From contig NZ_CP051206.1 in assembly GCF_012516395.1 (NCBI RefSeq), positions 4,469,334-4,533,333 on the forward strand: DNA of 64,000 bases, given 5' to 3'. The notes beneath the pieces are model-generated. The model saw nothing but the letters and a program-made list of their open reading frames with translations, was not told the DNA's origin and searched no databases. Positions 38,316 through 48,313 of this stretch are shown here, piece by piece (within the stretch, counting starts at the first letter, position 1; each line of letters opens with the position of its first letter). Origin of the DNA: Dolichospermum flos-aquae CCAP 1403/13F. GTDB taxonomy: Bacteria; Cyanobacteriota; Cyanobacteriia; Cyanobacteriales; Nostocaceae. Made by a program: the position numbers and the translations under genes.

Positions 38316-38480
38316 AGAGGTTGTTTGAAAAGTATTAGATGAAACCAATAATTTCCAAAAACCTAACCCCCCAGCCCCCCTTCCCTGCGAGGGAATGGGG
38401 GTTTCAAAGCCTCTCCCCGACGCGGGGAGAGGTTTGGAGAGGGGTTTATTTATACATTAAAAACTTTTCAAACATCCTCT
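38316..38480. repeat. 165-bp inverted-repeat element with AGAGGTTGTTTGAAAAGT ends
   Basis: Second member of the family seen at 14400-14606; ends AGAGGTTGTTTGAAAAGT and ACTTTTCAAACATCCTCT. Its interior again carries ctctcccc...ggggagagg stems but is about 40 bases shorter. It lies between lysA and the structured element at 38525. Confidence 0.85.
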
Positions 38481-38524
38481 AAGAACCAATGACTAATGAC
38501 TAAGAATCCAGATGTCTTGACACT

Positions 38525-38940
38525 CTCATGGCTTCAGCCACTGAGATTCTGCGGACAGAGTAAAACTCTCGCTGCGACCGTCAAACGCCGACTAAACGCT
38601 CAAAACAACTACCAACTAAGGTGTTGAAATTGCGCTTACTTTTGTTCAAAATGCTATGGCTAAAGCCACGCTGCGCTATCGGAATCTGTCACTAAGCCTG
38701 TGGCACGGTACGCTCAGTCAACCTGCCATTGCTTGCTCTTTCTCGTCATACTGCCGTTAGAAAATCTAACCGTTGTTTCACAGGAGCCGGGATTTCTCCG
38801 TACTAGGATGCTTCAATACGTAGACAATAATTCTTACTCGCAATTTAATTTTACCACAAATGTCACGGCGACTTTAATCGCTCGTGTCGCTTCCCTCTCA
38901 GGTCTGAAGACTCTGAGTTTCCTGCATACGGCGAGGTTTT
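38525..38940 (+). ncRNA. HEARO/omega-RNA-like structured mobile element, copy A
   Basis: ORF-less 416-base element. The left end has a hairpin: CTCAT, GGCT-TC-AGCC, a bulged A, then CTGAG (38525-38545). The right end has GCGA...TCGC (38868-38881) and a hairpin CTCAG, GTCT-GA-AGAC, bulged T, CTGAG (38897-38917). Exactly 23 bases later comes ATGA, the start codon of dacA. Copy B (47358-47779) has the same architecture, with stem bases changed in pairs. Paired end hairpins with an extrahelical base are typical of IS200/IS605-superfamily ends, and integration next to ATGA is described for HEARO (IscB omega-RNA) elements. The interior is diverged from copy B but folds locally. Class assignment is inference. 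Confidence 0.55.
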
Positions 38941-39894
38941 ATGAGAGATTGGTGGAAGCAATGGCTGATAAACCTGGGAGATAGGTCACAGTCCTTGTTC
39001 CTTGGGACTCTGGATATAATGTTAGTGCTGGCACTGACATACATGATCCTGGTTATTATTAGTGAACGGCGCACTTTATGGATGGTGCGAGGGTTTATAG
39101 TCTTAATGCTCTGCTCGGCACTCAGTGGCAAATTGGGATTACCCCTCCTAAATTTTGTCCTGGAAAAATTGGTGATTGGCTGTGCTGTGGCTATGGCTGT
39201 GGCACTGCAATCAGAATTTCGCCGTTTTTTAGAACAATTGGGACGTGGTGAATTTTGGCAGTTATTTCGGAATAACGCTAGAGCAATTCCTAAGTCGGAT
39301 AGTGTAATTGATGAAATTGTTGATGCAATTAAAGAGTTATCAAAAAATCGGATTGGCGCTTTACTAATTTTAGAAACTACAGGACCTATTGAAGAACAAG
39401 ATTTCTCCGTTCCAGGAGTGAAGCTAAATGCTGAAGTTTCTAAAGAACTGATCCAAACTATTTTTCAACCGAAAACTTTGTTACATGATGGAGCAACGTT
39501 AATTCGTGGTTCGCGCATTGTATCATCTGGTATAATTTTACCACTTTCAGGACGCACAGCGTCGCGGCAGTTGGGAACACGCCATCGGGCGGCAATGGGA
39601 ATTACTGAAAGGGTCGAAAATTGTATTTGTGTTGTTGTATCAGAAGAAACGGGTTCTATTTCCTTAGCGGAAAAGGGAACTCTATATAGACCACTAACTA
39701 TTAAAAAGCTCAAAGAGTCTTTAGAGACTCGATTCTCTCCCACTGTAGATCGGGAAGCTCATGCACCTGGTCTTTTCAGTTTAGTTCGTCAACTTGGTGA
39801 TCAATCACTAAAATTAATGTCCCGGTTACTTAGACTACCTTGTCTTCGACACGCTACCCGTAGAGGTACGACCGCTTCTCAAGATAAAAAATGA
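38941..39894 (+). CDS. dacA: diadenylate cyclase CdaA
   Basis: Makes cyclic di-AMP from two ATP, a second messenger for potassium and osmotic homeostasis. The 317-residue protein starts [13 protein letters not shown], has three membrane helices (about residues 22-100) and the DAC domain with DGA in [11 protein letters not shown] and RHR in [10 protein letters not shown]. The start is directly preceded by the structured element 38525-38940, which must supply or carry its 5' leader. The stop overlaps the uppS start (ATGA), so the two genes are translationally coupled. Confidence 0.95.
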
Positions 39895-40640
39895 AAACAC
39901 AACAAACTGAATTGCAATATTTACCTCTTGATTTAAAACAAGAATTACTCCCTCAGCACGTCGCGGTAATTATGGATGGTAATGGCCGATGGGCAAAAAG
40001 TCGTGGTCTACCCCGGATGATGGGTCATAAAGCCGGTGTAAATGTTCTCAAGGATTTACTGCACTGTTGCAAAGACTGGGGAATTAAAGCACTAACTGCC
40101 TATGCTTTTTCAACGGAGAATTGGCAAAGACCAGAGGAGGAGGTAGAATTTTTGATGAATCTATTTCAGCGCGTTTTACGACAAGAACTGCGGGAAATGG
40201 TGGAGGAAAATGTGCAAATTCAGTTTGTGGGTAATTTATCGGCTTTACCACAGGCTCTTCAGGCTGAGATTTCCCATTCTATGGATCAAACTAAGGATAA
40301 TCGCAGTATTCGGTTTACAATAGCGACTAATTATGGGGGTAGACAGGAGATTTTACAAGCTTGTCGGGCGATCGCTCAAAAGGTAAAAGCAGGTTTAATC
40401 AACCCTGAAGATATATCTGAAGAAGTATTTGAAGCTCATTTATATACGGCTGGAATAGCAGATCCAGATTTATTAATTCGCACCAGTGGAGAAATGCGAT
40501 TATCGAATTTCTTACTTTGGCAAATGGCTTATAGTGAAATTTATATTTCTGATACTCTCTGGCCGGATTTTAACCGTCATGAATTTCATCGCGCTTTATC
40601 TGCTTATCAACAACGAGAACGTCGTTTTGGGAAAGTCTGA
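39891..40640 (+). CDS. uppS: isoprenyl transferase (undecaprenyl diphosphate synthase)
   Basis: Cis-prenyltransferase making the C55 lipid carrier for cell-wall synthesis. Seen over 249 residues: [20 protein letters not shown] with catalytic Asp, [31 protein letters not shown] and [22 protein letters not shown]. It overlaps dacA by four bases. Confidence 0.96.
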
Positions 40641-40679
40641 CAATTTTGGATTTTAGATTGGTGCCAAATTTAAACTTTT

Positions 40680-40725
40680 AAATCCCAAATCCCAAATCCC
40701 AAATCCCAAATCCCAAATCCCAAAT
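40680..40725. repeat. heptameric repeat (AAATCCC)6
   Basis: Six tandem copies of AAATCCC between converging uppS and the DUF3143 gene. STRR-type repeat. Confidence 0.95.
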
Positions 40726-40729
40726 TAGA

Positions 40730-40996
40730 TTATGTCCCTGAAAAAACGGCTTCTTCGATATCTTCCCGACTCAGGGAATATTTAAAGGAACGTTGAATAT
40801 CTTGACGGTTTTCTCCTGATTGAAAATAGCGAACTGTAATTTGTTCAGTATCTAACCAAAGTTCCGCTTCCCAACTAGATCGTTGGACACGCCAACAATG
40901 TAGTTGGGTATCGTCTTGTTGACAACCTTGGTTTTTTAGCCATTGTTCAATTTGTGGTAAAGAATGACTATACAGTGGCGTATTAGCGGAAAGCAT
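40730..40996 (-). CDS. DUF3143 domain protein
   Basis: An 88-residue cyanobacterial protein of unknown function: LYSHSLPQIEQWLKNQGC, then HCWRVQRSSWEAELWLDTEQITVRY given here in parts (HCWRVQRSSWEAELW). ATG 40996 is chosen over the upstream TTG. DUF3143 genes are commonly found beside a small J-domain gene, as here (55 bases apart, same strand), suggesting a shared role. Confidence 0.82.
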   Translation of the reverse strand: MLSANTPLYSHSLPQIEQWLKNQGCQQDDTQLHCWRVQRSSWEAELWLDTEQITVRYFQSGENRQDIQRSFKYSLSREDIEEAVFSGT

Positions 40997-41051
40997 AAGC
41001 AATTCAATTCAATTCAAAATTATTGGTGATTTTAGAGGTGAGAAATTGAGT

Positions 41052-41531
41052 TTAACTGATTGCTTCTCCACGGAGAATGGCGATCGCAATCGCTAATAGC
41101 ATACAACCAACAATGGTTAACCCCAAAATAAATAATACAAATATTTCTCCAGAAGACAAAGGGCGATCTGTAGCATCAAGATACATTGATTTGGAAAAAT
41201 CGTAAGGCTTATGTACAGACTGGTTTAAATCGGGTGGTGCTTGAATTACGCCAAAACGGGAATAACCCACTTTCAAATCATAGCTCAATCGTCGTTCTGG
41301 GTTACAGAGGGTAGCGTAGGCTGTGTTTATTTGCTGAAATTTAGCAGTAGCAATATTAGCAGGTAATTCTGTCGTATCTGGATGATAGAGTTTGCTCAGT
41401 TCTCGATAAGCGCGACGAATATCAATTACTGATGCTCCAGGATAGAGTCCTAGCAGGGAGTAATAGGTAATTTCGCTGCTGTGTGGGACTTCCTCATTTT
41501 GGTTTACGGTTTTTTGAGTCACTTTGCTCAA
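41052..41531 (-). CDS. membrane-anchored J-domain protein
   Basis: A 159-residue co-chaperone-like protein. The J domain is at about residues 22-86 with the HPD motif in LSKLYHPDTTELP. One C-terminal membrane helix (about residues 130-152) anchors it. No zinc-finger or substrate-binding domain. It should stimulate a DnaK at the membrane. The frame begins with TTG 41531; GTG 41522 is an alternative. Confidence 0.85.
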   Translation of the reverse strand: MSKVTQKTVNQNEEVPHSSEITYYSLLGLYPGASVIDIRRAYRELSKLYHPDTTELPANIATAKFQQINTAYATLCNPERRLSYDLKVGYSRFGVIQAPPDLNQSVHKPYDFSKSMYLDATDRPLSSGEIFVLFILGLTIVGCMLLAIAIAILRGEAIS

Positions 41532-41627
41532 AGAAGTTTTTTATATTCTAAATCTCTTGGGTAGCTATAGCAGAAACAGCCACAAAACATCTTATAATAT
41601 GTATTATTCAGCATTTTATTAGATGCG

Positions 41628-41987
41628 ATGCCAACTAGAATTAATCTCCAAAATATCCAAACTCTTACCGATTTCAAACGTAACGCCAAAGACTACGTAG
41701 AAAAAATTAAGTCTACAAAATCCCCACTGGTGCTGACTGTCAATGGCAAAGCTGAGGTTGTAGTGCAGGAAGCACAAGAATTTCAACAGATGTTAGATCG
41801 ACTGCAAAACCTTGAGGAAGAACTGCAAAAACTCAAATTAGCAGCTTTACGCAATGAAATTAATATTGGTATTCAGCAACTAGAAAACGGTGAGTACACT
41901 GAATATGATGAAGAGTCACTGACCAATTTTTTTGCAAATATTAAAGGGCGAGTCCAGAAAAATTTGGCTGATAGTGGTTCTGTATGA
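41628..41987 (+). CDS. Phd/YefM-family antitoxin
   Basis: A 119-residue antitoxin with the Phd fold: QTLTDFKRNAKDYVEKIKST, then LVLTVNGKAEVVVQEAQEFQQML. The C-terminal half is helical and acidic, likely the toxin-binding region. A TATAAT lies at 41593-41598. The stop overlaps the toxin start (ATGA). Confidence 0.88.
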   Translation: MPTRINLQNIQTLTDFKRNAKDYVEKIKSTKSPLVLTVNGKAEVVVQEAQEFQQMLDRLQNLEEELQKLKLAALRNEINIGIQQLENGEYTEYDEESLTNFFANIKGRVQKNLADSGSV

Positions 41988-42313
41988 GTCAATTTCGGAT
42001 TTCTAGCCAAGCAGCAGGAGATATTGAGAATATCTGGAAATACGTGGCGCAAAATAACTCCAAAGCTGCTGATAAAATGTTTGATACATTGCGAACCACT
42101 TTTCCCAAATTAGCCAAATTTCCCCAAATGGGTAAAGAACGCCCTGAACTAGCTTATTCTCTGCGAAGTTTCCCTGTAAAAAGCTACTTAATTTTTTACC
42201 GAGCCATTGATCAAGGTATTGAAATTGTCCGTATCTTACATGGTTCACAAGATATAGAGGGAATTCTTCATGATCTAGAAAATACAGAGGATGAAGAAAT
42301 AGCCCTGGAATAA
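41984..42313 (+). CDS. ParE/RelE-family toxin
   Basis: A 109-residue toxin of the ParE type: FRISSQAAGDIENIWKYVA, FPQMGKERPELAYSLRSFPVKSYLIFYR (split here: MGKERPEL and YSLRSFPVKSYLIFYR), and EIVRILHGSQDIE. The last segment with RILHG is characteristic of ParE. Members poison gyrase or cleave mRNA. Overlaps the antitoxin by four bases. Confidence 0.9.
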   Translation: MSQFRISSQAAGDIENIWKYVAQNNSKAADKMFDTLRTTFPKLAKFPQMGKERPELAYSLRSFPVKSYLIFYRAIDQGIEIVRILHGSQDIEGILHDLENTEDEEIALE

Positions 42314-42429
42314 ATAGAATCTGATATGAATTATCAATTGACAATTGATAGCTACCTGTGCAAAATTAATTGAATATTTTAAATGTTGGGTTTCCTTGCG
42401 TCAACCCAACCTACATAAAGTGTATTTTT

Positions 42430-43170
42430 TTATAAAATGTCAGGGTCAATATTCAATTCTCTGAGTTTGGCAGCTAAACGTTCTGCACGTTGTGTGGCTT
42501 CTTCTGCGAATTGGGTCTGTTGTTCTGCGAGTTGGGTTTGTTGTTCTGCACGTTGGTTTGCTTGTACTCCATATTCTTCTGGTGTTAGCATTAATTGTCC
42601 TTCTGGCATAAAATAACGCAATTTACCGTCATGGACACCCAAATATAAATTTAGTTGCTGACTCCATAATAAACCTTGAGAATTGGGTTCTATCGGTTGA
42701 TATGTTCCACCAAACAAGATAAAACCAGCAAATTCTAAATTTTGCGGATTAAACCAGAAATATTCAGGTGTGCGGAAAATATCTTGATAAATTTGTTTTT
42801 TTAACCCTTTATCAGTGGACGCAGTAGAGGGAGAAAGCAATTCTATAATAAGGTTAGGATATTTACCACCTTCCTCCCAGACTACCCAACTATTTCGCTC
42901 GCGGTTTTCTGTATCCAGCACTAGGAAAAAATCTGGACCACGAAAATCTTTAATTTTAATTTGCCGAGGACTGTAATAAACAGTCATGTTCCCGGCAACA
43001 AAATAGTCATTAATTTTATTTATATCTCGCCACCACCAATTGAGACATTGGATTAGTAGTAGCATTTGTTGTAGATGTAAAGATGATTCCAAAGGGGGTT
43101 CGTCACTTTCTAGATTACTTGGTGGAAATACTACATCTAAACCGGGTTCAATATTTTGGGTGACGGTCAT
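42430..43170 (-). CDS. Uma2-family putative endonuclease (DUF820)
   Basis: A 246-residue Uma2 protein of the longer subgroup. The acidic core is FRGPDFFLVLD and YPNLIIELLSPSTASTDKG. The C-terminus carries a heptad-like run of RAEQQTQLAEQQTQ repeats ending in AAKLRELNIDPD, likely a coiled coil. The repeat is visible in the DNA (gttctgcgagttgggt units, 42490-42560). Third Uma2 gene in the window. Confidence 0.85.
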   Translation of the reverse strand: MTVTQNIEPGLDVVFPPSNLESDEPPLESSLHLQQMLLLIQCLNWWWRDINKINDYFVAGNMTVYYSPRQIKIKDFRGPDFFLVLDTENRERNSWVVWEEGGKYPNLIIELLSPSTASTDKGLKKQIYQDIFRTPEYFWFNPQNLEFAGFILFGGTYQPIEPNSQGLLWSQQLNLYLGVHDGKLRYFMPEGQLMLTPEEYGVQANQRAEQQTQLAEQQTQFAEEATQRAERLAAKLRELNIDPDIL

Positions 43171-43301
43171 AGCTGCAAGTTAGTGAGGGATCTATTTTCA
43201 TGGTAACAGATCCAGGAATCTAAAATTCTCTACCCACTCTGCATCTGAGCCATCTGTGGAGAGATTAATTTCTCTTGTTGCTTCTGTAGTTTGTTTTATT
43301 G

Positions 43302-44297
43302 TTAAATTAAATCAGCGCGAGGTTTAAAGGTTTCTATTTCTCGTAATTTTTCATAAAGTTCTCGTTCTTGAGGACTAATATTTTTGGGAGTTACTATCTG
43401 AATTTCCACTAATTGATCACCACGTTGACCAGTTTCGCCAGGGTAGCCTTTATTACCAAGACGGAATCTTTGCCCAGACCGAACACCAGCAGGAATGGTC
43501 ATTTTTACTGGACCATCAAGGGTAGGTGCTTCGACTTGTCCGCCTAAAGTTGCTTCACTGGGAGTTACAGGGACTTGACAGAAGATATTAATGCCTTCTA
43601 ACTTAAACAAAGGATGAGGATCAACGGTAATTTTTAAGTATAAATCACCACCACTAATTCCCTGATTTCGCAGGCGGATAGTTTGACCTGTTACCATAGC
43701 TGGGGGCATAGTCACTTCGAGAGAACGTCCATCTTCTAAACGTATTCTTTCATTACCACCTTGATAAGCTTTTTCTAAAGGTAAGGTTAATCTAGCTTCG
43801 ATATCCCGACGGGTAGCACGGGGTGGCGGGGTATTAACTGTATATGCAACTTTGGTTCTGGGACTGCGAAAGGGGTCGCTAGTGCTGGTACTTCCGGGAC
43901 TACTTTTGGGATCTTTGCGATTGCTGACACCAATTACTTGATTAACAAAACTTTCAAAATCGTTAAATTGGCTGGGGTCTACTTCTTGACTAGAACGAGC
44001 GTTAGCGCGGTTATCCCAACCTTTAGGCTTGGGAGTTTGTTTATTGCCAGCAAAGCCGTTTTGTTGCCAATAGCGGCTAAATTGGTCATATTGCGATCGC
44101 CTGCTAGAATCAGAAAGGATTTCATAAGCCTCACCAATAGTTTTAAATTTCTCCTCAGCTTCCTTATTCCCCGGATTCAGGTCAGGGTGATATTGTCTAG
44201 CTAAACGCCGATAAACCTTCTTGATTTCTTCACTGGTGGCATCTTTAGAAACCCCTAAAATTTCGTAATAATCCCGAAAGTTCTGCAAATTTTGCAT
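43302..44297 (-). CDS. DnaJ-type co-chaperone (CbpA-like, no zinc finger)
   Basis: A 331-residue Hsp40 with J domain at residues 7-73 (HPD in LARQYHPDLNPG) and a Ser/Lys-rich linker. Two C-terminal beta-sandwich domains follow (TLPLEKAYQGGNERIRL and PVTPSEATLGGQVEAPTL). No CxxCxGxG zinc modules are present, so it is a type B J-protein. dnaK lies upstream on the same strand, separated by a 540-base gap filled with a MITE array. Confidence 0.93.
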   Translation of the reverse strand: MQNLQNFRDYYEILGVSKDATSEEIKKVYRRLARQYHPDLNPGNKEAEEKFKTIGEAYEILSDSSRRSQYDQFSRYWQQNGFAGNKQTPKPKGWDNRANARSSQEVDPSQFNDFESFVNQVIGVSNRKDPKSSPGSTSTSDPFRSPRTKVAYTVNTPPPRATRRDIEARLTLPLEKAYQGGNERIRLEDGRSLEVTMPPAMVTGQTIRLRNQGISGGDLYLKITVDPHPLFKLEGINIFCQVPVTPSEATLGGQVEAPTLDGPVKMTIPAGVRSGQRFRLGNKGYPGETGQRGDQLVEIQIVTPKNISPQERELYEKLREIETFKPRADLI

Positions 44298-44320
44298 AAT
44301 CTGTTAAATGTTAGTTGTCA

Positions 44321-44725
44321 GTAGGGGCGAAGCATTTGGAAGATAAATTATCGGTCATTGCCAAAAATAGTTCTCCAAATGCTTCGCCCGTACAGTGGTC
44401 AGTTGTCAGTTGAAGCATTTGGAAGATAAATTATCGGTCATTGCCAAAAGTAGTTCTCCAAATGCTTCGCCCGTACAGTGGTCAGTTGTCAGTTGAAGCA
44501 TTTGGAAGATAAATTATCGGTCATTGCCAAAAGTAGTTCTCAAAATGCTTCGCCCGTACAGTGGTCAGTTGTCAGTTGAAGCATTTGGAAGATAAATTAT
44601 CGGTCATTGCCAAAAATAGTTCTCCAAATGCTTCGCCCGTACAGTGGTCAGTTGTCAGTTGAAGCATTTGGAAGATAAATTATCGGTCATTGCCAAAAAT
44701 AGTTCTCCAAATGCTTCGCCCGTAC
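44321..44725. repeat. five-unit tandem array of GGGCGAAGCATTTGGA element
   Basis: Units start at 44321, 44412, 44495, 44578 and 44661. The last four have an exact 83-bp period, including the spacer agtggtcagttgtcagtt, and have lost the leading gtaggggc. Each unit keeps the inverted ends GAAGCATTTGGA and TCCAAATGCTTC (one caaaatg variant in unit 3). It fills the dnaK-dnaJ gap. Not a CRISPR: the units are palindromic mobile elements and the spacers are identical. Confidence 0.93.
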
Positions 44726-44836
44726 AGTGGTCAGTTGTCAGTTGCGCTTCTACTTATGACTGACCCTGCAAATCAAATATTGGGAAAGATTTTTGAATGT
44801 AGATCAAATATAGTTAATCTAAAATCTAAAATCGAA

Positions 44837-46897
44837 TTATAACCAATCATCGTCATCATCCCAGTTATCCTGATAGCTAGGGCGTTTGCTGCGAGTGGGA
44901 CGAGTTTCATAATTGGCAGAACGATTTTGATTTTCCCTGCCATAATTCCTGTTAACACCTCGGTTAGATGAATCTCGTTGGCGATAGTTATCTCTGTAAA
45001 CATCCCGTTCCGGTTCTTTTTCTTTGTCACCCACAAAGATTTCCCGGATAGCACCAAATAAATCTTCATCTTCATCCTCAGCATAATACTGACGGACTTC
45101 TCTATTCAGTTCATACAGAGCATCTTGTAAATCAGCATAAGCCTGATCAATACCGCGATCTTCGTCAGCTTGTAAACTTTCTCGTAAATTCCGGCAAATA
45201 TTATCAATGCGTTGACGACGGTTGCGGGCAAATTGCATTCCCATTTCCAAAGCTACTTCTCGCAGTTGTCGTTCTGCTTGTAATATTAACGCTTCGGCGC
45301 GGGTCCGTTTTTCAACTCGTTCCTTCCTTTCTCTATCAACATTGGCATATTTTTGGGCATCCTGAATCATGCGGTTAACTTCTGACTCACTTAAAGTAGA
45401 AGCGTCTTGAATAGTAATGCTTTGTTCTCTGCCAGTAGTCCGATCTAGGGCTGTTACCTGGAGAATCCCATTAGCATCAATATCAAAGGATACTTGCACT
45501 TGGGGAATGCCTCGCGGTGCGGGAGGAATGCCATAGAGTTTAAACCGTCCCAAGGATTTGTTATCTGTGGCCATGTCCCTTTCACCTTGGACAATATTGA
45601 TTTCTACGCTATTTTGGTTATTTTCAGAAGTAGAAAAGATGTCAGAACGACGGACTGGGATAGTTGTATTGCGGGGGATGAGTTTTTTCATGACACCACC
45701 GATGGTTTCTAAGCCCATAGATAGGGGTGTGACATCTAAGAGGAGAACATCTTTAAGTTCCCCAGCCAGAATACTGCCCTGAATAGCTGCACCCACAGCG
45801 ACGACTTCATCAGGATTGACGTTTTCGTTGGGTTCAATGCCAATTAAGTCTTGAACTAGCTGTTTCACCATGGGCATTCTCGTAGAACCACCAACTAATA
45901 CGACTTCTTCAATATCTACAGGAGAAACTCCGGCATCTTTTAACGCCCGCTTAACTGGTGTTCTGATTCTACCCAGTAAGTCTACACATAAACCTTCAAA
46001 TTGCGATCGCGTCAGCCGAGTTTCTAGGTGTTTTGGACCGTCCTCCGTGGCGGTAATGAAGGGTAAATTAATATCGGTGACACTAACCGCCGAAAGTTCA
46101 ATTTTCGCCTTTTCTGCGGCTTCCATTAACCGTTGCAAAGCTTGGCGATCGCGTCTTAAATCTACACCTTCTGCTTCTAAAAACTGTTCCGCTAACCAAT
46201 CAACTACTTTTCGATCAAAATCATTACCACCGAGTTGAGTATCTCCACTGGTAGATTTAACCTCAAATACGCCATCACCCACATCTAGTAGGGACACATC
46301 AAAAGTTCCCCCACCCAAATCAAACACAAGAATAGTTTCTGTGTAACCTCGATCTAATCCGTAAGCCAAGGATGCCGCTGTGGGTTCGTTGAGAATCCGT
46401 AAAACATCTAAACCAGCAATTCTACCCGCGTCACGGGTAGCTTGGCGTTGGGAATCATTAAAATAAGCCGGAACAGTAATCACAGCCCCGGTAACAGGTT
46501 CACCTAAATAACGACTAGCATCATCAGCTAATTTTTTCAGCACCATAGCCGAAATTTCTTCTGGGGAAAATTCCTTATTCAGCCGGGGACAGGCAACTTT
46601 AATATTGCCAATTTCATCTTTGCGGATAGTGTAAGGAACACGCTTAGAATCCGGGTTTAATTCCCCATATTTGCGCCCAATGAAGCGTTTCACGGCAAAA
46701 AAGGTATTTTGGGGATTAAGGACGGTTTGCCGTCTGGCCATTTGCCCCACAACCCTTTCCCCTTCTTTACTAAAGCCAACGACGGAGGGGGTTGTTCGCA
46801 TTCCTTCTGCATTGGCAATCACCACCGGCTTGCCACCCTCCATGACGGCGACTACTGAGTTGGTTGTACCCAAGTCGATGCCAACTACCTTGCCCAT
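44837..46897 (-). CDS. dnaK: Hsp70 chaperone DnaK
   Basis: ATP-driven chaperone of 686 residues. Motifs: [17 protein letters not shown] at the start, [39 protein letters not shown], and substrate domain [13 protein letters not shown]. The C-terminus departs from classical DnaK: after the lid it has an Arg/Asn/Asp-rich tail ending WDDDDDWL. Cyanobacteria carry several DnaK paralogues; this resembles the one with a charged tail, so the number is left open. Downstream lies the dnaJ-like gene beyond the MITE array. Confidence 0.96.
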
Positions 46898-47357
46898 GCG
46901 TTACTCGTCTCCTGTTGCGTGTTTTGTAAATTTATTATGATATGATAATACTGCTTTTAGCTTGGTGCTAAATCAGGTCAACAATCCAATTGCAATAGTC
47001 ATTAAATCAGAAATATCCAATGATAACAGCATTGCTACTTGCTACAGGATAGCATTTAGAAAGAGGCAAGAGGTAAGAGGCAAGAGGCAAGAGGCAATTA
47101 CACTTCACTTGCGATTACGATTATGGCTTCTGATGGGCTGGGATCTCGTAATTATCTCGCAAACTGTCATGAATTTTCACCCAAGTTCCGTCTCTGCGCC
47201 AGTTGAATTAATAAAAAAAGTGAAATGATAAGAAAAGTTAAAAATTTCAAATAAATATAGTACGTATAATTCGCAGTGTTGTGTGTGTGATATAAAGTCA
47301 ATTATGGGTTTTCAGAATCCATCAAACAACTCGTCTGAATATTGCTAGTGTCAGTAA
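46898..47357. other. dnaK upstream gap with STRR
   Basis: A 460-base gene-free stretch. A heptameric run of gaggcaa/gaggtaa units lies at 47061-47098. No coding sequence or known RNA is evident until the structured element begins at 47358. The sequence just left of that element (atattgctagtgtcagtaa) would be the guide position if it is an omega RNA. Confidence 0.5.
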
Positions 47358-47779
47358 CTCAGCCCTAAAGGGACTGAGCTTGTAAGAAATTGCAAGCTGT
47401 ACTGACCAGTCTAAGTCTTAACTGACTACGTTTTTTGAGTCACGACACCCTGGAATGCGTAGCTAGTTCCCTGCTCTGTCGCTTGTGATTAAACAGTTTC
47501 AAAGTCACTGAAACAGTGTTGCAAGCCTAACAAGCTCTTAAAACATTGACGAAGCTAACATTACCCCAGAAATGGGAGGCTCTTCGGAGCAACACATTAT
47601 GCGTACAGAGTTGGGAAATTTGAATCGGTAATTGTCCCGTTGAAAGTACACCACAAAAGTACCCCGAATTTCTCAACTCCAAGGCGGTAATGAAAAAATA
47701 TTCACAGCGGTTAAAACCGCCCGTGTCGTTTCCCTCTCAGGGCTAAAGCCGCTGAGTTTCACGCTTACCGGGTATTCTT
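47358..47779 (+). ncRNA. HEARO/omega-RNA-like structured mobile element, copy B
   Basis: ORF-less 422-base element. The left hairpin is CTCAG, CCC-TAAA-GGG, bulged A, CTGAG (47358-47378), followed by a CTTG...CAAG hairpin. At the right are GCGGTT-AA-AACCGC (47707-47720) and the end hairpin CTCAG, GGCT-AA-AGCC, bulged G, CTGAG (47736-47756). ATGA follows after 23 bases and is the start codon of the secreted-protein gene. A long-range stem is likely (GAGTTGGGAAATT near 47610 with AATTTCTCAACTC near 47670). Shares architecture, spacing and covarying stems with copy A at 38525. Confidence 0.6.
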
Positions 47780-48313
47780 ATGATGAAATTTACTCTATCT
47801 CGTCTTTTGCCTTTAGTTGTTGGTAGTGCTGCTGCTAGTGTCCTTGCTAGTATGTCTCCTGCTAAGGCGATTACATTGAATGTCAATGGTCAAAATGTAA
47901 CCGCCGATAAAATTACAGTCAATAAGGGCAATTTTGAAAAGTCCATCGCTCAAATTAAGCACAGTCCTTGGTGGGAAAATTCGGGATTAGCGGAGATGTT
48001 GTCTAACGATGAGAAGGCAGAAGGTGGAAAATTTGTATACAGTGCGGTTAAGACCTACGCTGGAATTATTAAGGTAAACTTTTGGAGCAAAGGAGCAGAC
48101 GAATATAAAGGAGCAGACGAATATATCGAAATAAATCCCATAAATTTTGGAGCGAATCAAATCCAGCACGTTGTCGTACAAGTGCCCTTTGATATTTCCG
48201 GAAGCGCTACCATTCCCGCAGTCGGCGCTCTACTCTTGGCCGCAAGATGGAAAGCTAGAAAAAGCATAGCATCAAAAACCCGCACTGCCAACCCTGATGT
48301 AGCGGTTTCCTAG
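47780..48313 (+). CDS. secreted protein with C-terminal sorting-like tail
   Basis: A 177-residue protein with a clear signal peptide (about residues 1-30, ending SPAKA). The central domain has no catalytic motif, and the tail SGSATIPAVGALLLAARWKARKS resembles cyanobacterial C-terminal anchor signals (short motif, hydrophobic stretch, basic end). The hydrophobic part is shorter than normal, so anchoring may be impaired. An in-frame 15-base duplication gives GADEYKGADEY. The start codon ATGATG abuts the structured element 47358-47779. Function unknown. Confidence 0.65.
   Translation: MMKFTLSRLLPLVVGSAAASVLASMSPAKAITLNVNGQNVTADKITVNKGNFEKSIAQIKHSPWWENSGLAEMLSNDEKAEGGKFVYSAVKTYAGIIKVNFWSKGADEYKGADEYIEINPINFGANQIQHVVVQVPFDISGSATIPAVGALLLAARWKARKSIASKTRTANPDVAVS

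Follow-up and report, generated by a model that had tools for sequence, protein, structure and literature searches.

Two ORF-less elements in front of ATGA

The window analysed here, a stretch of 64,000 nucleotides within a 5.15-Mb chromosome (C1) of a bloom-forming cyanobacterium, carries two elements without open reading frames of their own, E1 and E2, with E2 lying 8.8 kb beyond E1 (Table 1). Upstream of E1 is an ORF that, judged by eye, we take to resemble diaminopimelate decarboxylase, and directly downstream is a diadenylate cyclase gene, the product of which is 97–98% identical to DacA of named Dolichospermum strains. The protein encoded behind E2 found no match in a Pfam search and is, again judged by eye, presumably a secreted, PEP-CTERM-like protein. 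Each element has two end hairpins of 21 nt, and CTCAN-N11-CTGAG matches the plus strand of the window at these four places only.

The hairpins had been described in the original prediction, together with the two 14-nt hairpins, the distance of 23 nt between the right hairpin and ATGA, and the use of this ATGA as the start of the next gene. All of these features are present in both elements, with two qualifications: the first hairpin starts with CTCAT and does not share the CTCAR opening ascribed to all four, and the gene behind E2 could instead begin with the ATG that follows 3 nt later. The boundaries proposed for the two elements are shifted in Table 1, for E1 on the basis of empty alleles and for E2 on the basis of the HEARO model.

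Table 1. Positions of the two elements, their parts and the adjoining genes within the window
Feature	Positions	Strand	Details
E1 left flank, former dacA leader	38497..38516	+	would be guide/target sequence; abuts ATGA in empty alleles
E1, non-autonomous IS605 (tnpA/tnpB type) derivative	38517..38940	+	424 nt; TTGACAC...GTTTT; delimited by empty alleles
E1 left-end hairpin	38525..38545	+	CTCATGGCTTCAGCCACTGAG
E1 14-nt hairpin	38868..38881	+	GCGACTTTAATCGC
E1 right-end hairpin	38897..38917	+	right end common to HEARO solos
dacA/cdaA-type diadenylate cyclase gene	38941..39894	+	PF02457, E 4.5e-37; ATGA start is the insertion target
E2 left flank, expected omega-RNA guide position	47330..47349	+	predicted from IscB/IsrB anatomy
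E2, solo HEARO element	47350..47779	+	430 nt; without iscB
HEARO (omega) RNA of E2	47350..47564	+	RF02033, E 8.1e-35, model 1–211 of 211
E2 left-end hairpin	47358..47378	+	within HEARO RNA
E2 14-nt hairpin	47707..47720	+	GCGGTTAAAACCGC
E2 right-end hairpin	47736..47756	+	
Gene downstream of E2	47780..48313	+	177 aa; opens at target ATGA; no Pfam match

Assignment of the two elements

HEARO RNAs, their ORF-less copies and the ATGA or GTGA that adjoins them are already known. E2 matches the HEARO model RF02033 with 163.6 bits, against a gathering score of 83, and this is the sole cmscan match in the window at gathering thresholds. E2 resembles HEARO/IscB omega RNAs in matching the whole model and in having RTGA on its right, here ATGA at 47780, and differs from them in the missing iscB, since no ORF for this HNH endonuclease was found within E2. 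Judged by its sequence, E2 is a HEARO/omega-RNA element in its solo form. For E1, RF02033 gave no match in the surrounding region (38400–39100) even at E values up to 5, which rules out its assignment as a HEARO, and Rfam returned no meaningful family match. The HEARO-like nature ascribed to both elements stands for E2 and has to be given up for E1.

E1 belongs to a second dispersed family with long matches that are about 71–80% alike (DNA search, 21 genomes); at least eight further long copies are found in the same genome and more in relatives, and copies with a visible left end start with TTGACACT and the hairpin. One member in the same genome, L182, has the left end of E1, an ORF that we identify by eye as tnpB-like on one strand, a tnpA (PF01797) on the other strand, and a right end that reads ...GGGTATTCTT and is followed by ATGA; it is apparently a complete and autonomous relative of E1. 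Because L182 combines the left end of E1, tnpA, a tnpB-like ORF and the common right end, E1 is a deletion derivative of an IS605 element of the tnpA/tnpB type. Another copy, L214, has retained tnpB only (NF040570), and its ATGA opens an ORF of 298 aa that we take by eye for lipA. Y1_Tnp gave ten matches in the genome; one of them lies within an element that combines a left end like that of E1 with the common right end. Any omega RNA in E1 would be of the TnpB type and lie on the opposite strand. The consensus fold of five copies scored −63.6 on the minus strand and −51.3 on the plus strand, compared with means of −24.8 and −20.7 for column-shuffled alignments, and showed no covariation signal.

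The last ~65 bases are common to E1 and the HEARO copies. A right end is present at 75 same-genus loci, and its hairpin fits the pattern used at 45 of them, a count that leaves out a variant closing with GCTCG. Full pairing is seen in 44 of these, with four different stems; in the inner 3-bp stem 99.3% of cells are paired, compared with 63.6% when the 3' arms are redealt. The claim that stem bases change in pairs, made from the two elements of the window, is therefore borne out. Among the left HEARO hairpins, full pairing is seen in 76 of 82 cases (97.6% of cells, 87.0% after shuffling); the signal is less strong here, as a single stem predominates.

The IS200/IS605 nature that had been proposed for both elements is supported by the end hairpins they have in common, the empty sites without duplication described below and the apparently autonomous relative. 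Subterminal bulged hairpins are a likeness to IS200/IS605 elements and their non-autonomous derivatives of the MITE or PATE type. Further likenesses are the insertion of E1 and of the sister HEAROs of E2 beside a tetranucleotide without duplication, and the longer relative of E1 with a Y1 tnpA and a tnpB-like ORF. The difference is that here one right end is common to a TnpB-type and a HEARO-type family of the same genome. Short ORF-less repeats like E1 and E2 have been described from a related cyanobacterium, Anabaena sp. strain 90, as type II MITEs that are unlike the inverted repeats of the IS of that genome; 132 of these 147 MITEs are intergenic, and the comparison, by description, differs in that the term 'start codon' is absent from the main text of that report (PMC3542288).

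Empty alleles and insertion without duplication

At dacA, 13 of 16 same-genus genomes lack the element and have ...AAGAATCCAGATGTC directly followed by ATGAGAGATTGG, and three are filled, namely the genome of the window (G000), G011 and G002. E1 in G000 lies exactly between GATGTC and ATGA, both of which are contiguous in the 13 empty alleles, and no duplication is seen. G011 and G002 have kept the right half beside dacA, the left half being gone. The three filled alleles may or may not go back to one inherited insertion; between G000 and G011, identity of the right half amounts to 79%. Among 80 dacA loci of named relatives, the start is ATGA in 75 and ATGG in 5, and the right-end pattern occurs directly before dacA at only one of the 80. 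In the 75 relatives with an ATGA start, each of the positions −10 to −1 is at least 96% conserved.

Two HEARO copies, in front of aroB and mutS, are filled in G000 and empty in all 15 other same-genus genomes, and their insertion left the left flank intact and produced no duplication. As they are confined to one species, these insertions are young. E1 and the aroB and mutS copies are all inserted just 5' of ATGA without target duplication. Empty sites are clear at dacA, aroB and mutS, while the gene behind E2 offers only diverged empty relatives: in G003, G010 and G015, its homologues start without an element in front, their leaders have diverged and the gene itself is poorly conserved. There is virtually no chance that the elements are ordinary conserved 5' leaders that do not move, a reading ruled out by the empty alleles (E1, L002, L016) and the dispersed copies, and in the case of E2 by its dispersed family only.

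Domestication as 5'-leader regulators, acting on the following gene like a riboswitch or a repressor, would account for the right half that persists beside dacA in G011 and G002 despite the loss of the left half. We nevertheless regard it as highly improbable, given that the downstream genes are unrelated (3-dehydroquinate synthase, MutS, an NADH dehydrogenase subunit, a response regulator and DacA) and that a single species out of 16 carries the insertions at aroB and mutS. TldR proteins, TnpB-derived RNA-guided regulators, present a likeness in that IS605-derived RNA-guided parts are reported to affect gene expression (PMC13418256). E1 and E2 differ from these systems in that no TldR-type gene stands alongside.

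Concentration of solo HEARO copies at start codons

In the genome of the window, RF02033 found 20 matches, 16 of them over the cut-off. An iscB ORF that matches the IscB model NF040563 over its whole length is present at three of the 20 loci (L009, L014, L017) and missing from 17. A right end is recognisable in 14 of these 17 solos, one of them (L018) internally shortened, and ATGA comes next in every case. This ATGA opens an ORF of at least 80 aa in 10 of the 14. The genes opened by these ten include those for 3-dehydroquinate synthase (aroB), MutS, a subunit of the proton-translocating NADH dehydrogenase type, a response regulator, and MreD-like and COP23-like proteins; an NCBIfam search with the protein behind L013 gave no match. 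In the case of L006, L010 and L011, the next gene is co-oriented and lies 102, 68 and 30 nt away.

As background we used ATGA sites with a non-coding left flank in 464 kb of the same genome. A site counted as a start if it opened an ORF of at least 80 aa, and this estimate is generous, any in-frame ATGA within the first 35 codons being accepted. By this measure, 211 of 1124 ATGA sites (18.8%) and 66 of 515 GTGA sites are starts. RF02033 was then searched in 60 genomes, that of the window included, and 41 had matches with E values of at most 0.001. We read 149 HEARO loci: the 20 of the genome of the window, 29 others and 100 of the 109 further listed matches. By ORF content, 107 are solo and 42 iscB-type, the distinction being made by an ORF regular expression, so that loci with a disrupted iscB may have been taken for solos. 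Loci without a readable right end followed by RTGA (18 of the 107 solo and 23 of the 42 iscB-type loci) are left out of the counts; among relatives, RTGA is absent after the right end at L046, L058 and L064. Right ends were set by hand for 10 plus 4 loci, and a few of the 89 counted solos have GTGA instead of ATGA.

Start codons adjoin 46 of the 89 solos, distributed over 19 genomes (binomial p 3e-12 against the 18.8% background). The excess is found in the genome of the window (10/14, p 3e-5), in other genomes of the genus (22/53, p 1e-4) and in other genera (14/22, p 5e-6); these p values are optimistic, as related insertions are counted singly, and the excess is uneven among genomes, G012 having one of seven copies at a start. 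HEARO copies stand at start codons beyond chance in the genomes examined. A catalogue of the right-end pattern made without an RNA model gave 33 matches in the genome of the window and none in the reversed control, and 16 of the 32 that were read open an ORF of at least 80 aa (p 6.5e-5); it overlaps the HEARO set and includes E1, E2 and most of the solos of this genome.

No significant excess at starts was found among iscB-type copies (6/19, p 0.13) or among E1-family copies with an ATGA right end (5/18, p 0.24). The 18 come from 28 E1-family loci looked at, 10 of which had no ATGA right end by the same test; part of the family has ATAA after the right end, and downstream of one copy, L193, is a further ATGA right end (L296, not at a start) that stands outside the 18. 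Two of the five E1-family copies at starts are those at dacA in G000 and G011. Compared directly, solos differ from the E1 family with p 0.07, from iscB-type copies with p 0.13 and from both together with p 0.03. That the E1 family is less biased is a mild argument that the HEARO RNA plays a part.

The original prediction had held that a target preference directs the elements to start codons. The concentration as such is real over many copies, but the directing preference does not follow from it, as the E1 family shows no significant excess, and it is left unproven because selection or RNA-guided retention could yield the same pattern. The excess at start codons sets iscB-less HEARO copies like E2 apart from the HEARO elements known so far. 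This concentration is the new part, the elements themselves belonging to known kinds; it was not found for HEARO or IS605 derivatives in the titles, abstract openings and best matches of the literature searched, and priority may lie elsewhere.

Possible origin of the excess

We consider it likely that the two ORF-less kinds of IS200/IS605 elements in the window are moved in trans, and that the excess of copies with a HEARO RNA at start codons came about by differential retention. The ends of IS200/IS605 elements are moved by Y1 transposases in single-stranded form and are inserted next to a tetranucleotide. E1 and E2, as ORF-less derivatives, would be mobilised in trans, with a Y1 transposase supplied by the host genome. 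Both kinds have kept one right end, and they insert without duplication just upstream of ATGA as read on the RNA-sense strand, that is 3' of TCAT on the other. Since ATGA and GTGA double as a start codon followed by A, a copy can come to lie precisely on a translation start, and its right tail then becomes the immediate leader of the gene.

In IscB and IsrB, the guide lies 5' of the omega RNA and a motif is needed 3' of the target. Passages of one study are consistent with this guide position and give the target-adjacent motif of tested IsrB proteins as NTGA or NTG for several, NTGG for another and NTG for the one from Dolichospermum (PMC9581776). The omega RNA of E2 would accordingly take its guide from the left flank and use ATGA as target-adjacent motif, and both guide and omega RNA may come from the host gene's leader transcript. 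IscB acting in trans could then remove empty alleles, comparable to the gene drive by TnpB that has been reported in plasmids (PMC11870625, preprint). On this account, the excess at starts would arise after insertion, by differential retention and not by target choice. The cause of the excess may be tolerance, RNA-guided retention or target preference.

RNA-guided retention would amount to a gene drive, with polyploidy of the host cell as its premise: IscB from other loci of the genome would cut element-free chromosome copies or incoming DNA, and elements in transcribed, conserved leaders beside start codons would persist and spread. We hold this to be possible rather than probable. Transcription of a 5' guide needs co-orientation with the next gene, which is found for the 46 solos at starts and for 34 of 40 others, compared with 517 of 851 background sites (p 0.0014; the 40 do not include three later ones). 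E1-family copies away from starts, whose TnpB-type RNA would lie on the opposite strand, are co-oriented in 7 of 12 cases with a readable neighbour, about the background level. The three iscB loci of the genome could act in trans, and the ten bases before dacA, which would be the target, are nearly invariant in relatives. The IsrB motifs NTG (Dolichospermum) and NTGA (PMC9581776) and the TnpB drive in plasmids (PMC11870625) point in the same direction. Still, iscB-carrying copies are not significantly enriched (6/19), and the co-orientation of HEARO and E1-family copies, compared directly, differs with p 0.10 only.

In nearest-copy identity, taken as a proxy for age, copies at starts were no different from the others (p 0.21, 0.22 and 0.44), and older copies favouring start codons can be rejected on these grounds. 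Retention is not favoured by age, given this similarity and the young insertions at aroB and mutS. A bias that is independent of the age proxy and is already visible in insertions of a single species would also be expected if insertion were steered beyond ATGA, be it by the transposase or by DNA that is single-stranded where translation starts. We think such a direct preference unlikely, as near-identical and hence recent E1-family copies of the genome of the window (L190, L191, L196, L197) include none at a start (0/4).

Differential retention, our preferred reading, can be extended to a more far-reaching and, in our estimation, rather doubtful scheme in which ORF-less HEAROs would be dispersed trans-acting guide RNAs that record leaders, use the start codon as motif and are fixed by a few IscBs, a Shine-Dalgarno-like tail keeping translation going. 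Outside the genus, 15 of 29 distinct right tails are of this kind, and inside it 7 of 30, where shuffles lead to expect about 5% and 3%. In this respect, copies at starts are no different from those elsewhere (p 0.47 and 0.34), which rules out Shine-Dalgarno strength as a sorting factor.

The target-adjacent motif NTG or NTGA reported for IsrB is spelled like a start codon (PMC9581776). If this coincidence places or keeps elements, the natural history of the ancestors of Cas9 would be tied to gene expression, and the persistence of guide RNAs without ORFs would be explained. For dacA, aroB and mutS, alleles with and without the element are at hand, on which a possible trans action of solo omega RNAs could be studied. 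As a minor observation, the same gene was hit in distant genomes in two instances, a presumably sqdB-like gene in G004 and G037 and a presumably DnaJ-like gene in G011 and G033, both names being assigned by eye.

Results

In the chromosome of the D. flos-aquae genome, the hairpin-bearing right end that is common to the HEARO (omega-RNA element, RF02033) and E1 (ORF-less IS605 derivative) families was found 25 times on the forward versus 8 times on the reverse strand (two-sided p 0.005). GC skew in 20 sampled stretches of this chromosome switched sign without a plain pattern. In a subset of the E1 family (L193, L194, L202, L203 and L205), ATAA takes the place of ATGA after the right end. This subset may depend on a sister transposase with a different tetranucleotide.

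A second small insertion separates dacA from the upstream ORF (Table). Sequence comparison revealed that its flanks are joined without the insert in two comparison genomes (G009 and G014), and it looks like a further MITE. In genome G002 (L224), ATGACAA repeats, each containing ATGA, stand in tandem upstream of dacA and adjoin the remnant of the element there.

Insertions in the window, at genes of comparison genomes and in chromosome C1 of the D. flos-aquae genome (G000); genes were named by eye except dacA
Feature	Locus	Position	Strand	Remarks
Second insertion before dacA		window ~38317-38480		bounded by GAGGTTGTTTGAAAAGTAT / ACTTTTCAAACATCCTC
sqdB-like gene	L030 (G004), L079 (G037)			copies at start codon, right ends differ
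DnaJ-like gene	L138 (G011), L114 (G033)			copies at start codon, right ends differ
dnaK, upstream	L003 (G000), L026 (G010), L095 (G013)			HEARO copies
Mini-element	L290	G000:C1:4650475	+	adjoins ATGA
Mini-element	L291	G000:C1:4682397	+	
Mini-element	L281	G000:C1:2678415	+	adjoins ATGA
Mini-element	L297	G000:C1:4400846	-	

Two genes each carry such start-codon copies in distant genera, and upstream of dnaK the HEARO copies of three species have no recognisable right end. In four mini-elements of ~52 nt, two of the HEARO and two of the E1 type, the left and right end hairpins are merged into a single one, probably by recombination joining both. The ATGA beside L290 starts a 164-aa ORF and that beside L281 an ORF of at least 501 aa.
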